From Ferrimonas sp. YFM (GTDB lineage Bacteria > Pseudomonadota > Gammaproteobacteria > Enterobacterales > Shewanellaceae), in the NCBI RefSeq assembly GCF_030296015.1, contig NZ_AP027368.1, positions 1,240,001 to 1,304,000 on the forward strand: 64,000 bases of DNA. Direction: 5' to 3'. Below, piece after piece: positions 47,101 to 55,378 of this stretch; position 1 is the stretch's first letter, and each line of letters starts with the position of its first letter. Both the position numbers and the translations under genes were made by a program. Below the pieces are notes generated by a model. The model was not told where the DNA came from. It saw nothing but the letters and a program-made list of their open reading frames with translations, and searched no databases.

Positions 47101-47316
47101 GCAACTTCCTTCATTCGGTTCTCTTTTTTATTTGCGGCCTAAGCCTAGCAGGAACTTTGCAGCGGAAAAAAGGGGGTAAATGTAGAAATCTGCAATCTCA
47201 ATGGGTTGATATTGCTTTGATGATGGTTCGGGGTGGCAAACTCGTTGTGAGTGATTAGTCTTAAGGTTGTCGGGATGCTAAGGAGTGGTGTCCCCGGTGT
47301 GACAGGGAGTCCCACA

Positions 47317-50300
47317 ATGGATTTTGTCATTCGTCAGATTTTTGTCTCTTTTTTTCTGATTTTGTTGGTGAGTTGCGGAGGTGGGGATGGCCTCGAGGAG
47401 GGCAGTGCAGAGGAATCCCCTGCCACGTATGCCCTGAGTTTGCAACTGCTTAATGGGTCAGGACAGCAGGTTGAGCAGTTTTTTTCCAGTGAAGAGTTGC
47501 AGCTGGTTGCTCGCCTGAGCTCTGTCAGAGGAAGCGTTGCTTCCAGAGATCTCAGCATTGAGATCAGCGGCTCCAAGATGGAGACTGCGCTCTCTTACCA
47601 GCTTTCCACCAATGGCGCCGGGGAGGCCAGGGTCACCCTGGCTGCGGGCAGCCTCAAAGGGCAGGGGGAGGTCCGGGGCAGCTATGGCACCCAGGCCCAA
47701 GTGAGCACCCCCTTTGATGCCCAAACCCTGAATCTCGAGCTGACCCTTACCGATACTCAGGGCCAGCCTCTGCAGACCCTCTCTTCCACCCAGCCCGGTC
47801 AGCTTCGGGCGCACCTGACCGATGATGGCCAGCCTCTGGCCGACACCCTGGTGAGCTTTACCCTGGGCGAGGTGGGGGCGATGACCCCCTCCATGGGCAC
47901 CGCCCTGACCGACGCTGAAGGCATCGCCAGTGTCACCCTGCTGGCGGGCAGCGACGCCGGTGCGGGCCTGGTGCACGGCGCGGTCAGCATAGAGGGTACG
48001 GTGCTAAGCCGATCCCTGGCCTTTGCCACCTTAGGAGAGGAGAGTGCCGGCGAGACCGCAGGCGGGGAGCAGTTGCAGCTGTCGCTGGTAAGCAGCCAGA
48101 GTGGCGCGGCCACCAGTCAGATCTCCGCCTCGGACCCCGGATTGATTCAGGTGCAGTTGCTCGATGCTTCTCAGCAGCCTGTAATGGGACGGGTGGTGAG
48201 CTTCAGCACCACCCTGGGCCAGTTTCTGCCTGCCAGCGCCACCGCCCTGACCGACAGCAACGGCCGCGCCAGCATCTTGCTCAAGGCGGGTAGCGTGCAG
48301 GGGGCTGCGGAGGTGGAGGCCAGCTTCGATTCGGTGACCAGCCGCCTGGGCTTTGTCACCCTGGGGGATGAGATTGACCCCAGCTCGGTGGTGCCGGAAA
48401 TTGCCCTGGCCCTGTATGACTGCAGCGCAGCTTCGGGCTGGGATCGCAGCGCCCGCAATTTCGAGGTGTGCCAGGCCACCTCCAACATCACCAATACCCA
48501 GCCCGGGATCATCGCCATTACTCTGACCCAAAGCGGCAGCGACCAGCCCCTGGCCCAGCGGCTGGTGACCGCGTCCACTACCTTGGGGGCCATCAGCCCG
48601 GCGGCAGGCACCGCCATCACCGATGCCCAGGGGCGGGCCCTGCTGGATCTCTATGCCAATGGCGACCTCGGCGCCGGCGAGCTGACCGTGGGCATCGCCA
48701 ACCAGTCCCAGCAACTGGCGTTTGAGGTGGGCAGGGTGAGCGTCAGCCTGTCGGTCAGCAATTCCCTGGATAGCCAGACCTTGCCCGCCGGCGGCAGCGC
48801 CATCATCCGGGTGGAAACCCTGAATCCGGATGGCTCCCTGGCGGTGGACCAGCCGCTTGAGCTGGAGCTCAGCTCCCAGTGCGCCGCGGCCGGGCTGGCG
48901 GTCATCGACTCCCCGGTGACCACGGTGGCCGGAGTGGGGCTGGCCACCTACCTGGCACAGGGATGTCAGGGCGAGGACAGGATCAGCGTCAGTGCCCAGA
49001 CCGGTGGCAGCACCGTGGTGGGCCAGACCCTGGTACAGGTGGCGGACGCGGCCATCGGCTCGCTGCAGTTTGTCTCGGCCGAGCCCGGCTTGCTGGCGCT
49101 CAAAGGCAGTGGCGGCATCCAGGGGGCCGGGGTGCGCTCCGAAACCGCCCTGGTCAGTTTCCGGCTGCTGGACCAGTCCGGTGCGGCGGCGACCCAGGAG
49201 AAGGTGTGCTTCGAGCTCTCCACCGAGGTGGGTGGTTTGACCCTAAGCCCCGAGCCTCTGCCGCAGGATCTGGCGGATTGTCCCAATGTGCCTGAAGGCA
49301 CCTCGGATCTCAGCCGCTTCGCCGTGGGTTACTCCAACGGTGAGGGGGTGGTGTCGGTGACCGTGGGCGCCGGGGATGTGCCGACTCAGGTGAAGGTGTT
49401 TGCGGTGTGGGCCGGCAGCGACAGTGGCGGTCACCCTGCGGTGGTGTCGAACCTCTCCGATGCCCTGGTGGTGACCACGGGGCTGGCGGACGACAACAGC
49501 CTCTCCCTGAGCGCCAGCGTGCTCAATCCCGAGGCCTGGGAGTTCGACGGTGAACAGGTGCTGCTGACCATGATGGCGGCGGATCACTTCAATAACCCGG
49601 TCCCGGACGGCACCATGGTGGTGTTTACCACCGAGGGGGGCGCCATCGATGCCAGTTGTGAAACCGGCCCCAAGGATGACCGCCCCAACCCCGAGGGGGC
49701 CTGTCAGGTGGCCTGGCGCAGCCAGAGCCCAAGGCCCTTTGCCTCAACCCCCGTCAGCTGTCCCGATGCTTCCCTGCCTCCCTGTCTGGGGGCCACCATG
49801 GCCGATCACGTCAGTGGCCAGGACTCCATCATCGCCGAGCCCAGGCCCGGGCGCGCCTCGGTGATGGTGCGGCTCATTGGCGAAGAGAGCTTCGTGGATC
49901 TTAATGGCAACGGGGTGTTTGATGGCGCGCCGGAGACCTTTGTCGACCGCACCGAGGCGTTCCGGGATGACAATGAGGATGAGCACTATCGTAACTACAG
50001 CACCGATGGCTTGAGCGTGAGTGGGGCGGTGCCCGCCGGGGCCGTGGAGGAGGAGTTCTTCGACTATGACAATGATGGTCAGTTTGATGGCGTGGATGGC
50101 CTCTATACCGGCCTGCTTTGCCACGGGGATGCGGCGGCTCAGTGCGTGGATACCGGGTTGGATCCTCAGCACGCCCAATTGATGCTGTGGCGTAACCTGA
50201 CTCTGGTGATGTCCGGCAGTGTACCCTTTGGCAAACTGCGTCAGGTGGGCAGCGGCGGCGCGCTCGAGAACGTCAGTCAGTTGGATCTGGTGAGCAACGC

Positions 50301-50574
50301 CAGTCAGTCAGTGCTGCTGTTCCTCTCTGATGAGAACAACAACCCGCTGCCCTACGGCACCACCATCACCGCATCCGCCTCCAACGGTGAGCTGGTGGGG
50401 GTGACCGAATACAGCGTGGGCAGCACCAACAGCCTGATTCCCATGGCCTTTGGCTTTACCGTCGAGCAGGAGACCAGCCCCAATGAGCGCACCCTGGGCA
50501 GCCTGTTTATTACGGTGACCACCCCCAAGGGCAGTCCGGCCTCCTTCTCGGTGTCGGTGCTGGACGGCGGGTAG
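47317..50574 (+). CDS. Large surface lipoprotein with tandem bacterial Ig-like domains
   Basis: 1085 residues from ATG 47317, with GGGAG upstream. The signal peptide ends in a lipobox (ILLVSCGGG), so it is lipid-anchored. The body is a series of about 100-residue Big1/invasin-like domains. Each has GTALTDAEGIASVTLLAGS or a variant (GTAITDAQGRALLDLYA, SATALTDSNGRASILLKAGS), showing at least four related units between residues 130 and 480. The C-terminal half has Asp/Asn-rich acidic loops (DLNGNGVFDG, DYDNDGQFDG) likely to bind calcium. A role in surface adhesion or envelope structure is inferred from the fold. Confidence 0.85.
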   Translation: MDFVIRQIFVSFFLILLVSCGGGDGLEEGSAEESPATYALSLQLLNGSGQQVEQFFSSEELQLVARLSSVRGSVASRDLSIEISGSKMETALSYQLSTNGAGEARVTLAAGSLKGQGEVRGSYGTQAQVSTPFDAQTLNLELTLTDTQGQPLQTLSSTQPGQLRAHLTDDGQPLADTLVSFTLGEVGAMTPSMGTALTDAEGIASVTLLAGSDAGAGLVHGAVSIEGTVLSRSLAFATLGEESAGETAGGEQLQLSLVSSQSGAATSQISASDPGLIQVQLLDASQQPVMGRVVSFSTTLGQFLPASATALTDSNGRASILLKAGSVQGAAEVEASFDSVTSRLGFVTLGDEIDPSSVVPEIALALYDCSAASGWDRSARNFEVCQATSNITNTQPGIIAITLTQSGSDQPLAQRLVTASTTLGAISPAAGTAITDAQGRALLDLYANGDLGAGELTVGIANQSQQLAFEVGRVSVSLSVSNSLDSQTLPAGGSAIIRVETLNPDGSLAVDQPLELELSSQCAAAGLAVIDSPVTTVAGVGLATYLAQGCQGEDRISVSAQTGGSTVVGQTLVQVADAAIGSLQFVSAEPGLLALKGSGGIQGAGVRSETALVSFRLLDQSGAAATQEKVCFELSTEVGGLTLSPEPLPQDLADCPNVPEGTSDLSRFAVGYSNGEGVVSVTVGAGDVPTQVKVFAVWAGSDSGGHPAVVSNLSDALVVTTGLADDNSLSLSASVLNPEAWEFDGEQVLLTMMAADHFNNPVPDGTMVVFTTEGGAIDASCETGPKDDRPNPEGACQVAWRSQSPRPFASTPVSCPDASLPPCLGATMADHVSGQDSIIAEPRPGRASVMVRLIGEESFVDLNGNGVFDGAPETFVDRTEAFRDDNEDEHYRNYSTDGLSVSGAVPAGAVEEEFFDYDNDGQFDGVDGLYTGLLCHGDAAAQCVDTGLDPQHAQLMLWRNLTLVMSGSVPFGKLRQVGSGGALENVSQLDLVSNASQSVLLFLSDENNNPLPYGTTITASASNGELVGVTEYSVGSTNSLIPMAFGFTVEQETSPNERTLGSLFITVTTPKGSPASFSVSVLDGG

Positions 50575-52300: not shown

Positions 52301-52451
52301 AAAACCGGCTTGAAAACCGGCAAGATCAAAAAAAGTTGTTATATTGTGAAATAGATCCTGAGGTCGCTGGGTCTATTCTCGTAAGCCAGCGAACTACGGC
52401 GCTGGGTTAACAATGGTTTAAAAATCGAAGATATAGAGAAGGAAGCTTAAG
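52301..52451 (+). promoter_or_regulatory. Upstream region of the copper-peptide operon
   Basis: It holds a direct repeat AAAACCGGCTTG / AAAACCGGCAAG (52301-52312, 52313-52324), a 7-bp inverted repeat TCGCTGG...CCAGCGA (52364-52370, 52386-52392) and a second GCTGGGT at 52401. These could be regulator sites. No convincing sigma-70 boxes. The ribosome-binding site GAAGGAAG at 52439-52446 precedes the ATG at 52452. Confidence 0.4.
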
Positions 52452-52880
52452 ATGAATACTATGAAGAAAACCACTGTTGCTGCAGCTTTGGGTCTGTGTG
52501 TAGCTGGCGTATCCATGGGCGCTGCGGCGGCCGATACCAACCCCTTTGCCGCTCAGGAACTGACCGCGGGTTACCAGCTGGACGGTGACAAGCACAAAGA
52601 AGGTAAGTGTGGCGAAGGTAAGTGCGGCGGCGAGTCCAAGGGTAAAGAGGGCAAGTGCGGCGAAGGTAAGTGCGGCGGCGAGTCCAAAGGTAAAGAGGGC
52701 AAGTGCGGCGAAGGTAAGTGCGGCGGCGAGTCCAAGGGTAAAGAGGGCAAGTGCGGCGAAGGTAAGTGCGGCGGCGAGTCCAAGGCCAAAGAGGGCAAGT
52801 GCGGCGAAGGTAAGTGCGGCGGCGAGTCCAAGTCCAAAGAGGGCAAGTGTGGCGAAGGTAAGTGCGGTGGCGCTGCCTAA
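52452..52880 (+). CDS. hvfA: EGKCG-repeat RiPP precursor, HvfA/bufferin-like copper-binding peptide
   Basis: 142 residues. Residues 1-27 form a Sec signal peptide (MKKTTVAAALGLCVAGVSMG, then AAAA), so the mature peptide is exported. Residues 28-49 are a short spacer. From residue 50 to the end, the motif EGKCG occurs twelve times as six doublets, each EGKCGEGKCG followed by GESKGK (or KAK, KSK), with a strict 16-residue period and one Cys per motif. EGKCG is the motif whose cysteine is turned by MNIO enzymes into a thiooxazole or oxazolone-thioamide that binds copper. The MNIO and partner genes follow. Whether all twelve sites are modified is unknown. Start choice is supported by GAAGGAAG upstream. 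ATG 52461 is an alternative. Confidence 0.88.
   Translation: MNTMKKTTVAAALGLCVAGVSMGAAAADTNPFAAQELTAGYQLDGDKHKEGKCGEGKCGGESKGKEGKCGEGKCGGESKGKEGKCGEGKCGGESKGKEGKCGEGKCGGESKAKEGKCGEGKCGGESKSKEGKCGEGKCGGAA
52599..52877 (+). repeat. 48-bp coding tandem repeat in the RiPP precursor
   Basis: Six units of 48 bp (the last truncated) encode the EGKCG doublets. Units 2 to 5 differ by only a few silent changes, indicating recent unit duplication. Copy number is likely to vary between strains. Confidence 0.9.
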
Positions 52881-52903
52881 GGTCCCAGCCTGACCTAACC
52901 TCA

Positions 52904-52932
52904 GAGAAAGGCTGGCGTTTGCCAGCCTTCTC
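52904..52932 (+). terminator. Hairpin after the precursor gene (attenuator or processing site)
   Basis: A long stem GAGAAGGCTGGC-like / GCCAGCCTTCTC with a short TTT loop. It has no T run after it, so partial termination or RNA stabilisation is more likely than full stop. It would keep precursor output above that of the enzymes. Confidence 0.6.
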
Positions 52933-52936
52933 ATTA

Positions 52937-53177
52937 GGGTCTGTAGACCTTCGCTGATTGCTTTTGCGCCAGAAGCACTTTGATGTGTTGATGACTATCG
53001 AGTTTCGCGAAGGCATCTTGATGATATAAGCGATACTGGCGCCCTGCGGGGCTGGACTGACGACGACCACTCTGTGTCGCTCGATTTTGACGTAGGACCA
53101 CTATGCCTGCAATCGAGCTCCGTGATTGCTCGCCGTCATCCTCAGCCAAAAATTTACCACCGAAGATCAACAGACCC
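52937..53177 (+). mobile_element. MITE-like element inserted inside the RiPP operon
   Basis: 241 bp with terminal inverted repeats GGGTCTGT[A/T]GA[C/T]CTTCG (15 of 17 matching), flanked by TA on both sides as a target duplication. It has no complete gene. An open frame on the - strand (KFLAEDDGEQSRSSIAG and on) may be a remnant. It is related by its end to the sequence starting at 63851. Family (IS630- or IS5-like) is not settled. Confidence 0.7.
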
Positions 53178-53200
53178 TAGGCGATGGAAACCAGATTCAT

Positions 53201-53232
53201 ATGGATTAATGTTGCAGTCAGCCTTAATCCAT
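53201..53232 (+). promoter_or_regulatory. 9-bp inverted repeat before the MNIO gene
   Basis: ATGGATTAA and TTAATCCAT, a perfect pair with a 14-base gap, just upstream of the ribosome-binding site AGAAGGAG. It could be an operator or translation-controlling hairpin. Confidence 0.45.
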
Positions 53233-53252
53233 AGGATCAGAAGGAGAGCAGT

Positions 53253-54083
53253 ATGATTTCAGGGGCCGGACTCGGTTTAAAGCGTGAAATGGTGGATGAG
53301 TTTATCCAGGATGGTGTACCGCCTTCGGTGAACTTCCTGGAGGTGGCGCCGGAAAACTGGATGAAGGTGCCGCCTAAGCTGGCGCGCAAGTTCAAGGCCC
53401 TGACGGAGCAGTACCCCTTCGTCTGCCACGGCCTGTCCCTCTCCATCGGCGCCCCGGCGCCTCTGGATGTGGGGTTTGTGAAGCAGGTTAAGGTGTTTCT
53501 CGACACCTATGGCATCGACCTCTACTCCGAGCACCTGAGCTACTGCTCCGGCAATGCCCATATGTACGACCTGATGCCCATCCCCTTCACCGAGGAAGCG
53601 GTCACCCATGTGGCTGAGCGCATCCGCACCGTGCAGGAGATCATTGAGCGCCCTCTGATCATCGAAAACGTCTCCTACTACGCCGAACCCGGCGCCACCA
53701 TGGATGAGGTCAGCTTCATCAATGCGGTGCTGGCGGAGAGCGACTGTAAGCTGCTGCTGGATGTGAACAACATCTATGTGAACAGCATCAACCACAAATA
53801 CGATGCCGACGCCTTCCTCGAAGGGATCGATGGCAGCCGCACCGCTTACTATCATGTGGCCGGTCACTACCGTCAGGCCGATGATTTCGTGGTGGACACC
53901 CATGGCGCGCCGGTGATCGACCCTGTGTGGCGATTGCTGCAGCGGGCCTACGAGCTGCATGGCATCCACCCCACCTTGCTGGAGCGGGACTTTAACCTGC
54001 CCCAGACTCGCGAACTGGTCGCCGAAATCGACCGCATTCACCAGATTGCCGACCAGGTTAAAGGGGTCAAGGAGAGCGCATGA
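53253..54083 (+). CDS. hvfB: MNIO (DUF692) iron-dependent RiPP-modifying oxidase, HvfB-like
   Basis: A 276-residue TIM-barrel protein of the DUF692/MbnB family, now called multinuclear non-heme iron-dependent oxidases. Likely iron ligands are E30 (NFLEVAPENW), H59 (CHGLSLSIG), H94 (SEHLSYC), E138/N139 (IIENVSYY), D170 and N173 (LLLDVNNIYVN), H201 and H205 (YHVAGH), D216 and H218 (VDTHG) and E244 (LLERDFNLP). All the usual positions seem filled, so it should be active. It converts precursor cysteines to heterocycles using O2. It overlaps the DUF2063 gene by 4 bp and follows the EGKCG precursor. Confidence 0.92.
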   Translation: MISGAGLGLKREMVDEFIQDGVPPSVNFLEVAPENWMKVPPKLARKFKALTEQYPFVCHGLSLSIGAPAPLDVGFVKQVKVFLDTYGIDLYSEHLSYCSGNAHMYDLMPIPFTEEAVTHVAERIRTVQEIIERPLIIENVSYYAEPGATMDEVSFINAVLAESDCKLLLDVNNIYVNSINHKYDADAFLEGIDGSRTAYYHVAGHYRQADDFVVDTHGAPVIDPVWRLLQRAYELHGIHPTLLERDFNLPQTRELVAEIDRIHQIADQVKGVKESA

Positions 54084-54823
54084 TCGATTTCAAATCCCGC
54101 CAACAAGCCTTTATGGCCCACATTCGCGATCCCAACAACCCGGCGCCCGAGGGGATTCCTGCCGAGCGGATGGCGGTCTACCGAGAGCTGATGCTCAACA
54201 ACATCGGCAACTTTGTCGACAGTGGCTTTCCTGTACTCAAGTCTCTGTATCAGGAGGCGGACTGGGCCGAGCTGAGGGAGGCGTTTTTCGCCGCCCACGA
54301 CAGTCACTCCCCGCTGTTTGTGGACATCGCCGCCGAGTTCCTGTTGTTCCTGCAGGGCTGGCAGCATCGCCACTGCGATCCTCACTACCTGGAAGCCCTG
54401 GCGGCCTATGAGTACCTGGAGCTGAAGCTGGATGTGATGCCCGAAGCCCTGCACCAGCAAGCGTTGTCGGTGAACGACGATCTCTATCAGGTGCCGCTGC
54501 TGCTCAATCAGGTGGTTGAGATTGGCGAATATGACTATCCGGTCCATCAGGTGTCTGAACACAACCGGGATGTGGATCCAGCGCACACCCTGCTGCTGGT
54601 GTACCGCAACCTGGATCTGGATATCGCCTTTATGGCGATCAACCCCATGACTCAGGCCCTTCTGGCCAAGCTGGATGCCACTCAGCCCATCTCCACGGAA
54701 GCGCTGATCCTGTCGATGCAGGGGCAGTTCCCTCAGTTTGAGCCGCAAGTGATCGAGCAGGGCGTGATCCAGATCCTGGGTCAGATGGCCCGCGCCGGGG
54801 TGGTGGTCAAACCTTGTTCATGA
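54080..54823 (+). CDS. hvfC: DUF2063 RiPP-recognition partner, HvfC-like
   Basis: A 247-residue protein. The N-terminal helical DUF2063 domain (RQQAFMAHIRDP, ERMAVYRELMLNNIGNFVDSGFPVLKSL) is followed by a wHTH/RRE-like C-terminal half (LLNQVVEIGEYDYPVHQVS, LLLVYRNLDLDIAFM). In known systems this partner binds the precursor leader and presents it to the MNIO enzyme. The ATGA overlap with the MNIO gene shows co-translation. No DoxX-like HvfD follows, so membrane redox functions, if needed, are encoded elsewhere. Confidence 0.88.
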   Translation: MIDFKSRQQAFMAHIRDPNNPAPEGIPAERMAVYRELMLNNIGNFVDSGFPVLKSLYQEADWAELREAFFAAHDSHSPLFVDIAAEFLLFLQGWQHRHCDPHYLEALAAYEYLELKLDVMPEALHQQALSVNDDLYQVPLLLNQVVEIGEYDYPVHQVSEHNRDVDPAHTLLLVYRNLDLDIAFMAINPMTQALLAKLDATQPISTEALILSMQGQFPQFEPQVIEQGVIQILGQMARAGVVVKPCS

Positions 54824-54982
54824 TTTGAGAGTCCACGCGAGCTTGTTGTGAATTTGGCGGGAAACTGTTTCAAACATATTCCAATTTCGCCGAATCTGCT
54901 TCTTTGGTTGTGATCTTAAGCACACCATCCTGGGTGCGGGTTACGTAGACTGCGCTCAGGATTAAAGAGTCGGGTGTGGATT

Positions 54983-55378
54983 ATGACCAAACACATTTTA
55001 GTGGTGGACGATAACCCCGGCAGCCGGGCGAGGATCCAGGAGGTCCTGACGGCGGCAGGGATGTCAGTGGTGACAGCAGACAACGGCATGCAGGCGTTGC
55101 TTGCGGCCAAGAGTACCAAGTTCGACGGTGTGGTGACCGATCAGGTGATGCCCATGATGGATGGGTGCCACCTGTGCCGGATGCTTCGCGAGATCCCTGC
55201 GTTTAAGCAGGTGCCCATCATCCTGTTAACTACCGAGGCCGGGCCGGCCTTTCAGGAGGAGATGGAGGAGTGCGGAGTACCGGTGTGGATGGAAAAACCA
55301 CTTACGGAACAAAAGCTCGCGTTAATTGCGGCGGAAATGTTACATCCGTCTGTTGCAACCAAAACTAAAGCTGCTTAA
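54983..55378 (+). CDS. CheY-like single-domain response regulator
   Basis: 131 residues from ATG 54983. A GTG nine bases upstream is possible. The receiver domain is complete: acidic pair in HILVVDDNPGS, phospho-acceptor D53 in VVTDQVMPMMDG, Thr in ILLTTEAG and Lys105 in MEKPL. There is no output domain, so it signals by protein contact. It is 160 bp from the RiPP genes with its own terminator, and I see no partner kinase in the window. Confidence 0.88.
   Translation: MTKHILVVDDNPGSRARIQEVLTAAGMSVVTADNGMQALLAAKSTKFDGVVTDQVMPMMDGCHLCRMLREIPAFKQVPIILLTTEAGPAFQEEMEECGVPVWMEKPLTEQKLALIAAEMLHPSVATKTKAA

Follow-up and report, generated by a model that had tools for sequence, protein, structure and literature searches.

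The 64,000-nucleotide stretch analysed here (the window; G000:C1:1240001-1304000) comes from the genome of Ferrimonas sp. YFM, which consists of one contig of 4,662,746 bases, and carries a gene cluster of the HvfABC type in which a precursor peptide gene (hvfA) is followed by genes for an MNIO peptide maturase (hvfB) and its partner protein (hvfC). The window MNIO shares 98% identity with its counterpart in Ferrimonas futtsuensis and 66-92% with those of five other named Ferrimonas, which makes the host a Ferrimonas close to F. futtsuensis. Features of the locus are collected in Table 1.

Table 1. Features of the hvfABC locus, with positions counted from the first letter of the window.
Feature	Position	Strand	Evidence
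Promoter-like element TGAAAT (52347-52352) - N17 - GGTCT (52370-52374), proposed ECF-type -35/-10 of hvfA	52347..52374	+	
Small hairpin TAAGCCAGCG/CGCTGGGTTA, only suggestive, close to the predicted start of the hvfA mRNA	52382..52409	+	
Precursor of hvfA type (142 aa) with twelve EGKCG, a signal-like N-terminus and a conserved NPFxxxEL..GYQL segment	52452..52880	+	
48-bp tandem array coding the EGKCG doublets	52596..52872	+	Tandem Repeats Finder: 5.8 copies, 95% matches
GC-rich hairpin AAGGCTGGC-GTTT-GCCAGCCTT, no T-run, in the hvfA-hvfB gap	52908..52929	+	Predicted fold
Dispersed repeat element with inverted tips TAGGGTCTGT/ACAGACCCTA (by eye), between hvfA and hvfB	52935..53179	.	
hvfB, MNIO peptide maturase	53253..54083	+	PF05114 1e-100; NCBIfam HvfB NF003818 420.8 bits, cut-off 360; solved relative 3bww 2.5e-71
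hvfC, partner protein	54080..54823	+	PF09836, PF22106; NCBIfam HvfC NF050145 249 bits, cut-off 142; 3dee 2.5e-12

The initial annotation, made from the letters alone, had described a precursor with twelve EGKCG motifs arranged as six EGKCGEGKCG doublets with a period of 16 residues, and both the arrangement and its position hold; the signal peptide was judged by eye, without a predictor. The repetition is not a matter of chance, as a 48-bp tandem array underlies it at the DNA level. Against the NCBIfam domain model KCGExKCG_twice (NF050137) the precursor scored 109.4 bits (cut-off 19.5), while a Pfam search of it matched no family. Doublet spacing and motif number had both been regarded as peculiar, a view that the comparison with related genomes, which the initial annotation had itself proposed, does not sustain. 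The doublet has its own model, NF050137, has been reported in the literature (PMC12452194), and occurs at least once in all 47 precursor rows (five of them, L201-L205, being duplicates of two loci); twelve motifs, counted by the pattern [EDA][GA]KCG, are found in 10 of these rows, the window included, within a range of 3 (a contig-end fragment) to 16. Published precursors include some whose repeat unit contains EGKCG twice, and reach as many as 58 cysteines (PMC12452194). The F. futtsuensis precursor has 16 motifs against 12 here in aligned proteins that are 96% identical; the array therefore grows and shrinks. An AlphaFold model of the precursor built from six sequences had a mean pLDDT of 36.4 and was not used, and this prediction neither supports nor refutes the published beta-helix model (PMC12452194).

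A DUF692 MNIO gene with its metal ligands, followed by a DUF2063 gene at an ATGA overlap, had also been proposed, with profile searches of both proteins as the check. These searches place the first as an MNIO (PF05114/NF003818) and the second as DUF2063/HvfC (PF09836, PF22106/NF050145), with the cut-offs passed, and the hvfC start does overlap the hvfB stop. The window MNIO aligns with the solved structure 3bww over two stretches (residues 3-207 and 198-267), along which, by hand count, its N172, D215 and H217 correspond to HvfB N175, D242 and H244; replacement of these HvfB residues abolished activity (PMC13419390). All components of an HvfABC/EGKCG captophorin system are present, namely an EGKCG precursor, an HvfB-type MNIO with ligands, HvfC (DUF2063/PME1) and HvfX, the last of which lies elsewhere in the genome. 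Because the curated models exceed their cut-offs, assignment of the locus to the HvfABC-type copper-peptide RiPPs (ribosomally synthesised and post-translationally modified peptides) is supported, and we regard it as an HvfA-type (Buf_EGKCG/oxazolin, 'captophorin') biosynthetic cluster of a known kind. The initial annotation was thus right about the family, while the oxazolone-type group that it allowed for has been superseded, the oxazolone-thioamide assignment having been revised to 5-thiooxazole (PMC12668002, PMC13419390). Some ~2,000 Buf_EGKCG/oxazolin precursors have been described (PMC12452194), to which the cluster itself adds one member.

Of the 60 genomes compared, 40, own genome included, match the doublet precursor model NF050137. 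Among 32 loci read, all 28 with a precursor (three or more KCG in one frame) have the order hvfA-hvfB-hvfC on one strand, and the other four (L009, L010, L012 and L013) have no precursor by this rule. The doublet model matches two separate places in each of three genomes (G020, G025 and G027), which probably have two precursor loci.

The absence of a DoxX-like HvfD beside the cluster had likewise been listed as an oddity. No DoxX gene adjoins hvfABC in the window, so that the observation stands, but it is no anomaly, as an HvfX orthologue is encoded elsewhere: own genome has two DoxX genes, one of which (G000:2048857-2049447, 0.76 Mb from the window cluster) is HvfX, at 246 bits against NCBIfam NF050144 (cut-off 80). 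HvfX (E 1e-25 or better) occurs in 40 of the 60 genomes, and these are exactly the 40 with hvfA. Within the family both genes are found together in 34 of 36 genomes, with G015 and G019 lacking both; outside it HvfX is present in 6/6 genomes that have hvfA and in 0/18 that do not. In all 40 genomes hvfA and hvfX are separated by at least 47 kb or placed on different contigs, although drafts are included and different contigs do not prove distance. At two more distant loci (L010 and L014) an HvfX gene directly follows hvfC, and gene sets with DoxX in various combinations are already in print. The co-inheritance of hvfX with an unlinked hvfA in 40/40 genomes therefore points, on comparative grounds, to a needed step in the peptide pathway; HvfX is still described as uncharacterised (PMC13419390).

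Alignment of the regions upstream of hvfA revealed two conserved blocks, TGAAAT and GGTC[TA]. The second block is present in 34 of 38 hvfA loci (missing in L011, L014, L016 and L024), and in all 34 it lies 17 bp from the first (spacings of 14-20 were tried, with ties assigned to 17), which is itself perfect in 24. At 10 or more of 11 positions and N17 spacing, the element TGAAAT-N17-GGTCT was found upstream of hvfA in 33/38 loci, of the unlinked hvfX in 21/30 (30/30 at 9/11; these are the best 30 of 40 genomes), of msrP in 17/29, and of a gene for a DUF417 membrane protein in 5/5. The control gene apt had it in 1/23 loci (26 given, 23 with a match). One hundred permuted motifs gave means of 0.02-0.17 loci per set and a maximum of 4, and other spacings between 12 and 22 gave 0-2 loci per set at 10/11; at 9/11 a spacing of 12 gave 15/38 for hvfA. 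In own genome, TGAAA followed by 17 or 18 bases and GGTCT occurs 30 times, against 8 for the reversed pattern. Among the 20 matches with loci returned, some fall inside coding regions and some lie 20-35 bp before a gene; the latter genes encode MsrP (followed by an msrQ-like gene), DUF417, rhomboid, thioredoxin-like and small Gly-rich proteins. The pattern stands 77 bp upstream of hvfA itself. In own genome, at loci L078, L092 and L093, it lies 32-35 bp before genes for a 94-aa Gly-rich, secreted-looking protein, a rhomboid protein and a thioredoxin-like protein.

Taken together, hvfA, hvfX, msrPQ and the DUF417 membrane protein gene probably share one extracytoplasmic function (ECF)-type promoter, as in ECF regulons with an Msr gene (RpoE2- or sigma-F-like), where the MNIO operon and the Msr gene have a common element. 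We prefer a promoter to a riboswitch-like interpretation of the conserved leader of hvfA, which is rejected: an Rfam scan of the window gave no family at gathering score, folding of the leader does not surpass that of shuffles (z -0.93 and -0.78), and the spacing is constant at N17. The small hairpin near the predicted mRNA 5' end was matched by 0/100 shuffles at the own-genome copy (L044), and only 10/34 loci pass at 5/100. What is new here is the promoter-like element common to hvfA, hvfX, msrP and, where present, DUF417, together with HvfX in trans; a literature search that covered few subscription journals returned no description of this regulon.

As for the regulator, own genome encodes ECF sigma factors with RseA (L095), with a ChrR-like cupin (L096) and with a DUF3379 protein (L099; sigma gene at G000:3583177-3583773), plus two further candidates (L097 and L098). 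The ECF-DUF3379 protein is present in 43 of the 60 genomes. Outside the family, among the 12 genomes with an hvfA or msrP upstream region read (the sigma-positive G050, G055 and G059 being left out), sigma factor and element agree in 12/12: both are present in G040, G043, G045, G046, G049 and G054, and both absent in G036, G038, G041, G044, G048 and G051. The hvfA element status of G040, G049 and G051 was predicted before reading, correctly in 3/3. In G040 the spacing is N16 before msrP and N17 before hvfA; the msrP copy of G046 runs into the extrapolated start. The L097 factor was rejected as the regulator, as it occurs in 20/60 genomes and does not follow the element, being absent from the element-bearing G040, G045, G046, G049 and G054. 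The literature searched had no mention of DUF3379. We consider the ECF sigma factor with the DUF3379 partner the best candidate, and hold this assignment with moderate confidence because no copy of the element precedes the sigma gene and relatedness is uncontrolled.

Several observations weigh against the scheme as a whole and call for caution. The precursor reaches 70 bits against the HvfA equivalog model NF050188, under its cut-off of 95, and the copper binding and chemistry of the window peptide are carried over from characterised relatives rather than from experiment. At 10/11 the element is missing from 5/38 hvfA loci and from 12/29 msrP loci (L118, L120, L123, L124, L127, L129, L131, L134, L136, L138, L139 and L141; that of L138 matches 11/11 but at N16), DUF417 relatives occur in only 5/36 genomes, and the hvfX copy of own genome, TGAAAG/GGTCA, matches 9/11, a score equalled by 10/200 shuffles. 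The genomes are related, so the counts are not independent. No element was found upstream of the ECF-DUF3379 gene (0/30 at 10/11; a 9/11 match that falls within conserved coding sequence near the 5' end of the gene was not counted), and the analysis of co-occurrence with the element covered the ECF-DUF3379 and L097 factors among the five ECF genes.

Alternatively, TGAAAT-N17-GGTCT could be a genuine signal that serves a different sigma factor, or an activator site rather than an ECF-DUF3379 promoter. That the sigma gene itself lacks the element, that only some of the genome's ECF factors were compared, and that the agreement outside the family draws on 12 genomes that are related all lend this alternative some weight; the completeness of that agreement, the absence of L097 from five element-bearing genomes, and the printed Shewanella motifs of RpoE and RpoE2-ChrR, which differ from TGAAAT-N17-GGTCT (PMC4336711), argue for the ECF-DUF3379 factor instead. 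We consider another reader a serious possibility, albeit the lesser one.

The explanation that best accommodates these results, and one we consider likely, is a copper-peptide cluster with HvfX in trans under a shared ECF-type promoter. HvfB with its partner HvfC would turn the cysteines of EGKCG into 5-thiooxazoles before export, and the exported peptide would, by analogy with characterised relatives, bind Cu(I) in the envelope. HvfX, as a fourth component, would act in trans from its distant locus. Since hvfA and hvfX probably share their promoter with msrPQ and the DUF417 gene, we infer that peptide synthesis would belong to a periplasmic response to oxidative/copper stress, most likely under the ECF sigma factor paired with the DUF3379 protein. 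The fuller proposal is only slightly better than even in our estimation: that in a Ferrimonas/Shewanella-type clade this sigma factor controls, via TGAAAT-N17-GGTCT, a scattered regulon of hvfABC, unlinked hvfX, msrPQ and in some members DUF417, with the peptide as a defence arm and HvfX as its obligate trans partner. If so, a thiooxazole copper peptide would work beside methionine-sulfoxide repair in the defence of the periplasm. This anatomy of control makes the purpose of such peptides testable: a single sigma factor is expected to switch on both the making of the copper peptide and periplasmic methionine repair, in harmless marine bacteria.

The same regulatory company admits a different function, in which the peptide is mainly an oxidant sink, its thiols or thiooxazoles being spent on hypochlorite or similar oxidants beside MsrPQ and the DUF417 protein. 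The element before msrP and DUF417 is consistent with this, as are the induction by hypochlorous acid of an H. influenzae operon of this type under RpoE2 (PMC7907618) and the weak similarity of the DUF417 protein to RclC, a reactive-chlorine protein (64.7 bits against a cut-off of 275, which is not reached). Fontiphorin, however, bound as many as four Cu, and gonophorin 1-2 (PMC12668002), and the family models name the peptide a metallophore; we therefore think a predominantly oxidant-consuming role unlikely, although the two roles are compatible.

The space separating hvfA from hvfB measures 372 bp and holds the GC-rich hairpin and the ~245-bp repeat element; F. futtsuensis (L003) has a gap of the same length, and in L004-L008 it is 75-225 bp. 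A search with 52934-53185 gave 18 matches in own genome, itself included, most of them confined to roughly positions 105-248 of that query. A significant stem-loop (no more than 5/100 shuffles) lies in the gap in 26/29 loci, the exceptions being L073, L011 and L014, and its sequence varies among lineages while the pairing is kept. In the window the best-scoring stem is another than the GC-rich hairpin, at about 53200-53233; L068 and L069 likewise have a best stem other than the GC-rich one beside hvfA, though the GC-rich one is also present. The GC-rich hairpin is possibly an attenuator or an RNA 3' end. The gap stem-loop may terminate transcription partially and so hold the output of precursor above that of the enzymes, or it may be a terminator combined with a second promoter for hvfBC. 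That hairpin and repeat part the precursor from the enzymes in this strain could suggest an unmodified, Cys-rich, metallothionein-like secreted protein, with the enzymes acting on something else, but hvfB and hvfC stand behind hvfA in 28/28 loci with a precursor and the motif is that of characterised substrates (PMC12668002, PMC13419390), which makes this very improbable.

Other features surround the cluster or resemble it. Downstream of hvfC, apt, recognised by eye, is among the ORFs (open reading frames) in 18/23 family loci; a response-regulator receiver protein (54974-55378) is encoded between the two genes in the window and also in L003-L006, in diverged form in L074. Upstream, a 1107-aa ORF (47251-50574) has internally similar segments on a by-eye reading. 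A second MNIO cluster of own genome (L002, G000:3419878-3423657) has a DUF2282 bufferin-type precursor (PF10048, 1.3e-22), a BufB-like MNIO just under the cut-off (290.7 bits against 310) and a partner protein; the locus does not have the TGAAAT-N17-GGTCT element, the best match being 8/11.

Four known systems come closest to the window cluster. Fontiphorin (fon) and other EGKCG captophorins share the EGKCG repeats, MNIO and DUF2063 partner; the fontiphorin product carries 5-thiooxazoles, seven of them, and binds copper (PMC12668002). The mmrABC set of Microbulbifer, also marine bacteria, is a three-gene set with an EGKCG precursor, in which there are five to eight cysteines (PMC12538549). The hvfABC(X) operon of H. 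influenzae, which makes oxazolin, has an HvfA with EGKCG doublets, HvfB, HvfC and a DoxX-like HvfX (PMC13419390), but six cysteines against twelve here and its DoxX gene inside the operon. An operon of this type is controlled there, together with msrAB, by the ECF sigma factor RpoE2 (PMC7907618), which has a small anti-sigma peptide, and MsrAB takes the place of MsrPQ. The Caulobacter sigma-F regulon (bufferins) likewise puts MNIO (DUF692)/DUF2063 operons, a DoxX gene and a YedY gene under one ECF sigma factor, yet with DUF2282 precursors, the motif GTAACC-N16-CGAA and the negative regulator CC3252 with DUF1109 (PMC3511200). H. influenzae RpoE2 and Caulobacter sigma-F are thus the precedents for the arrangement proposed here, which relies on another element and, probably, on another sigma factor.

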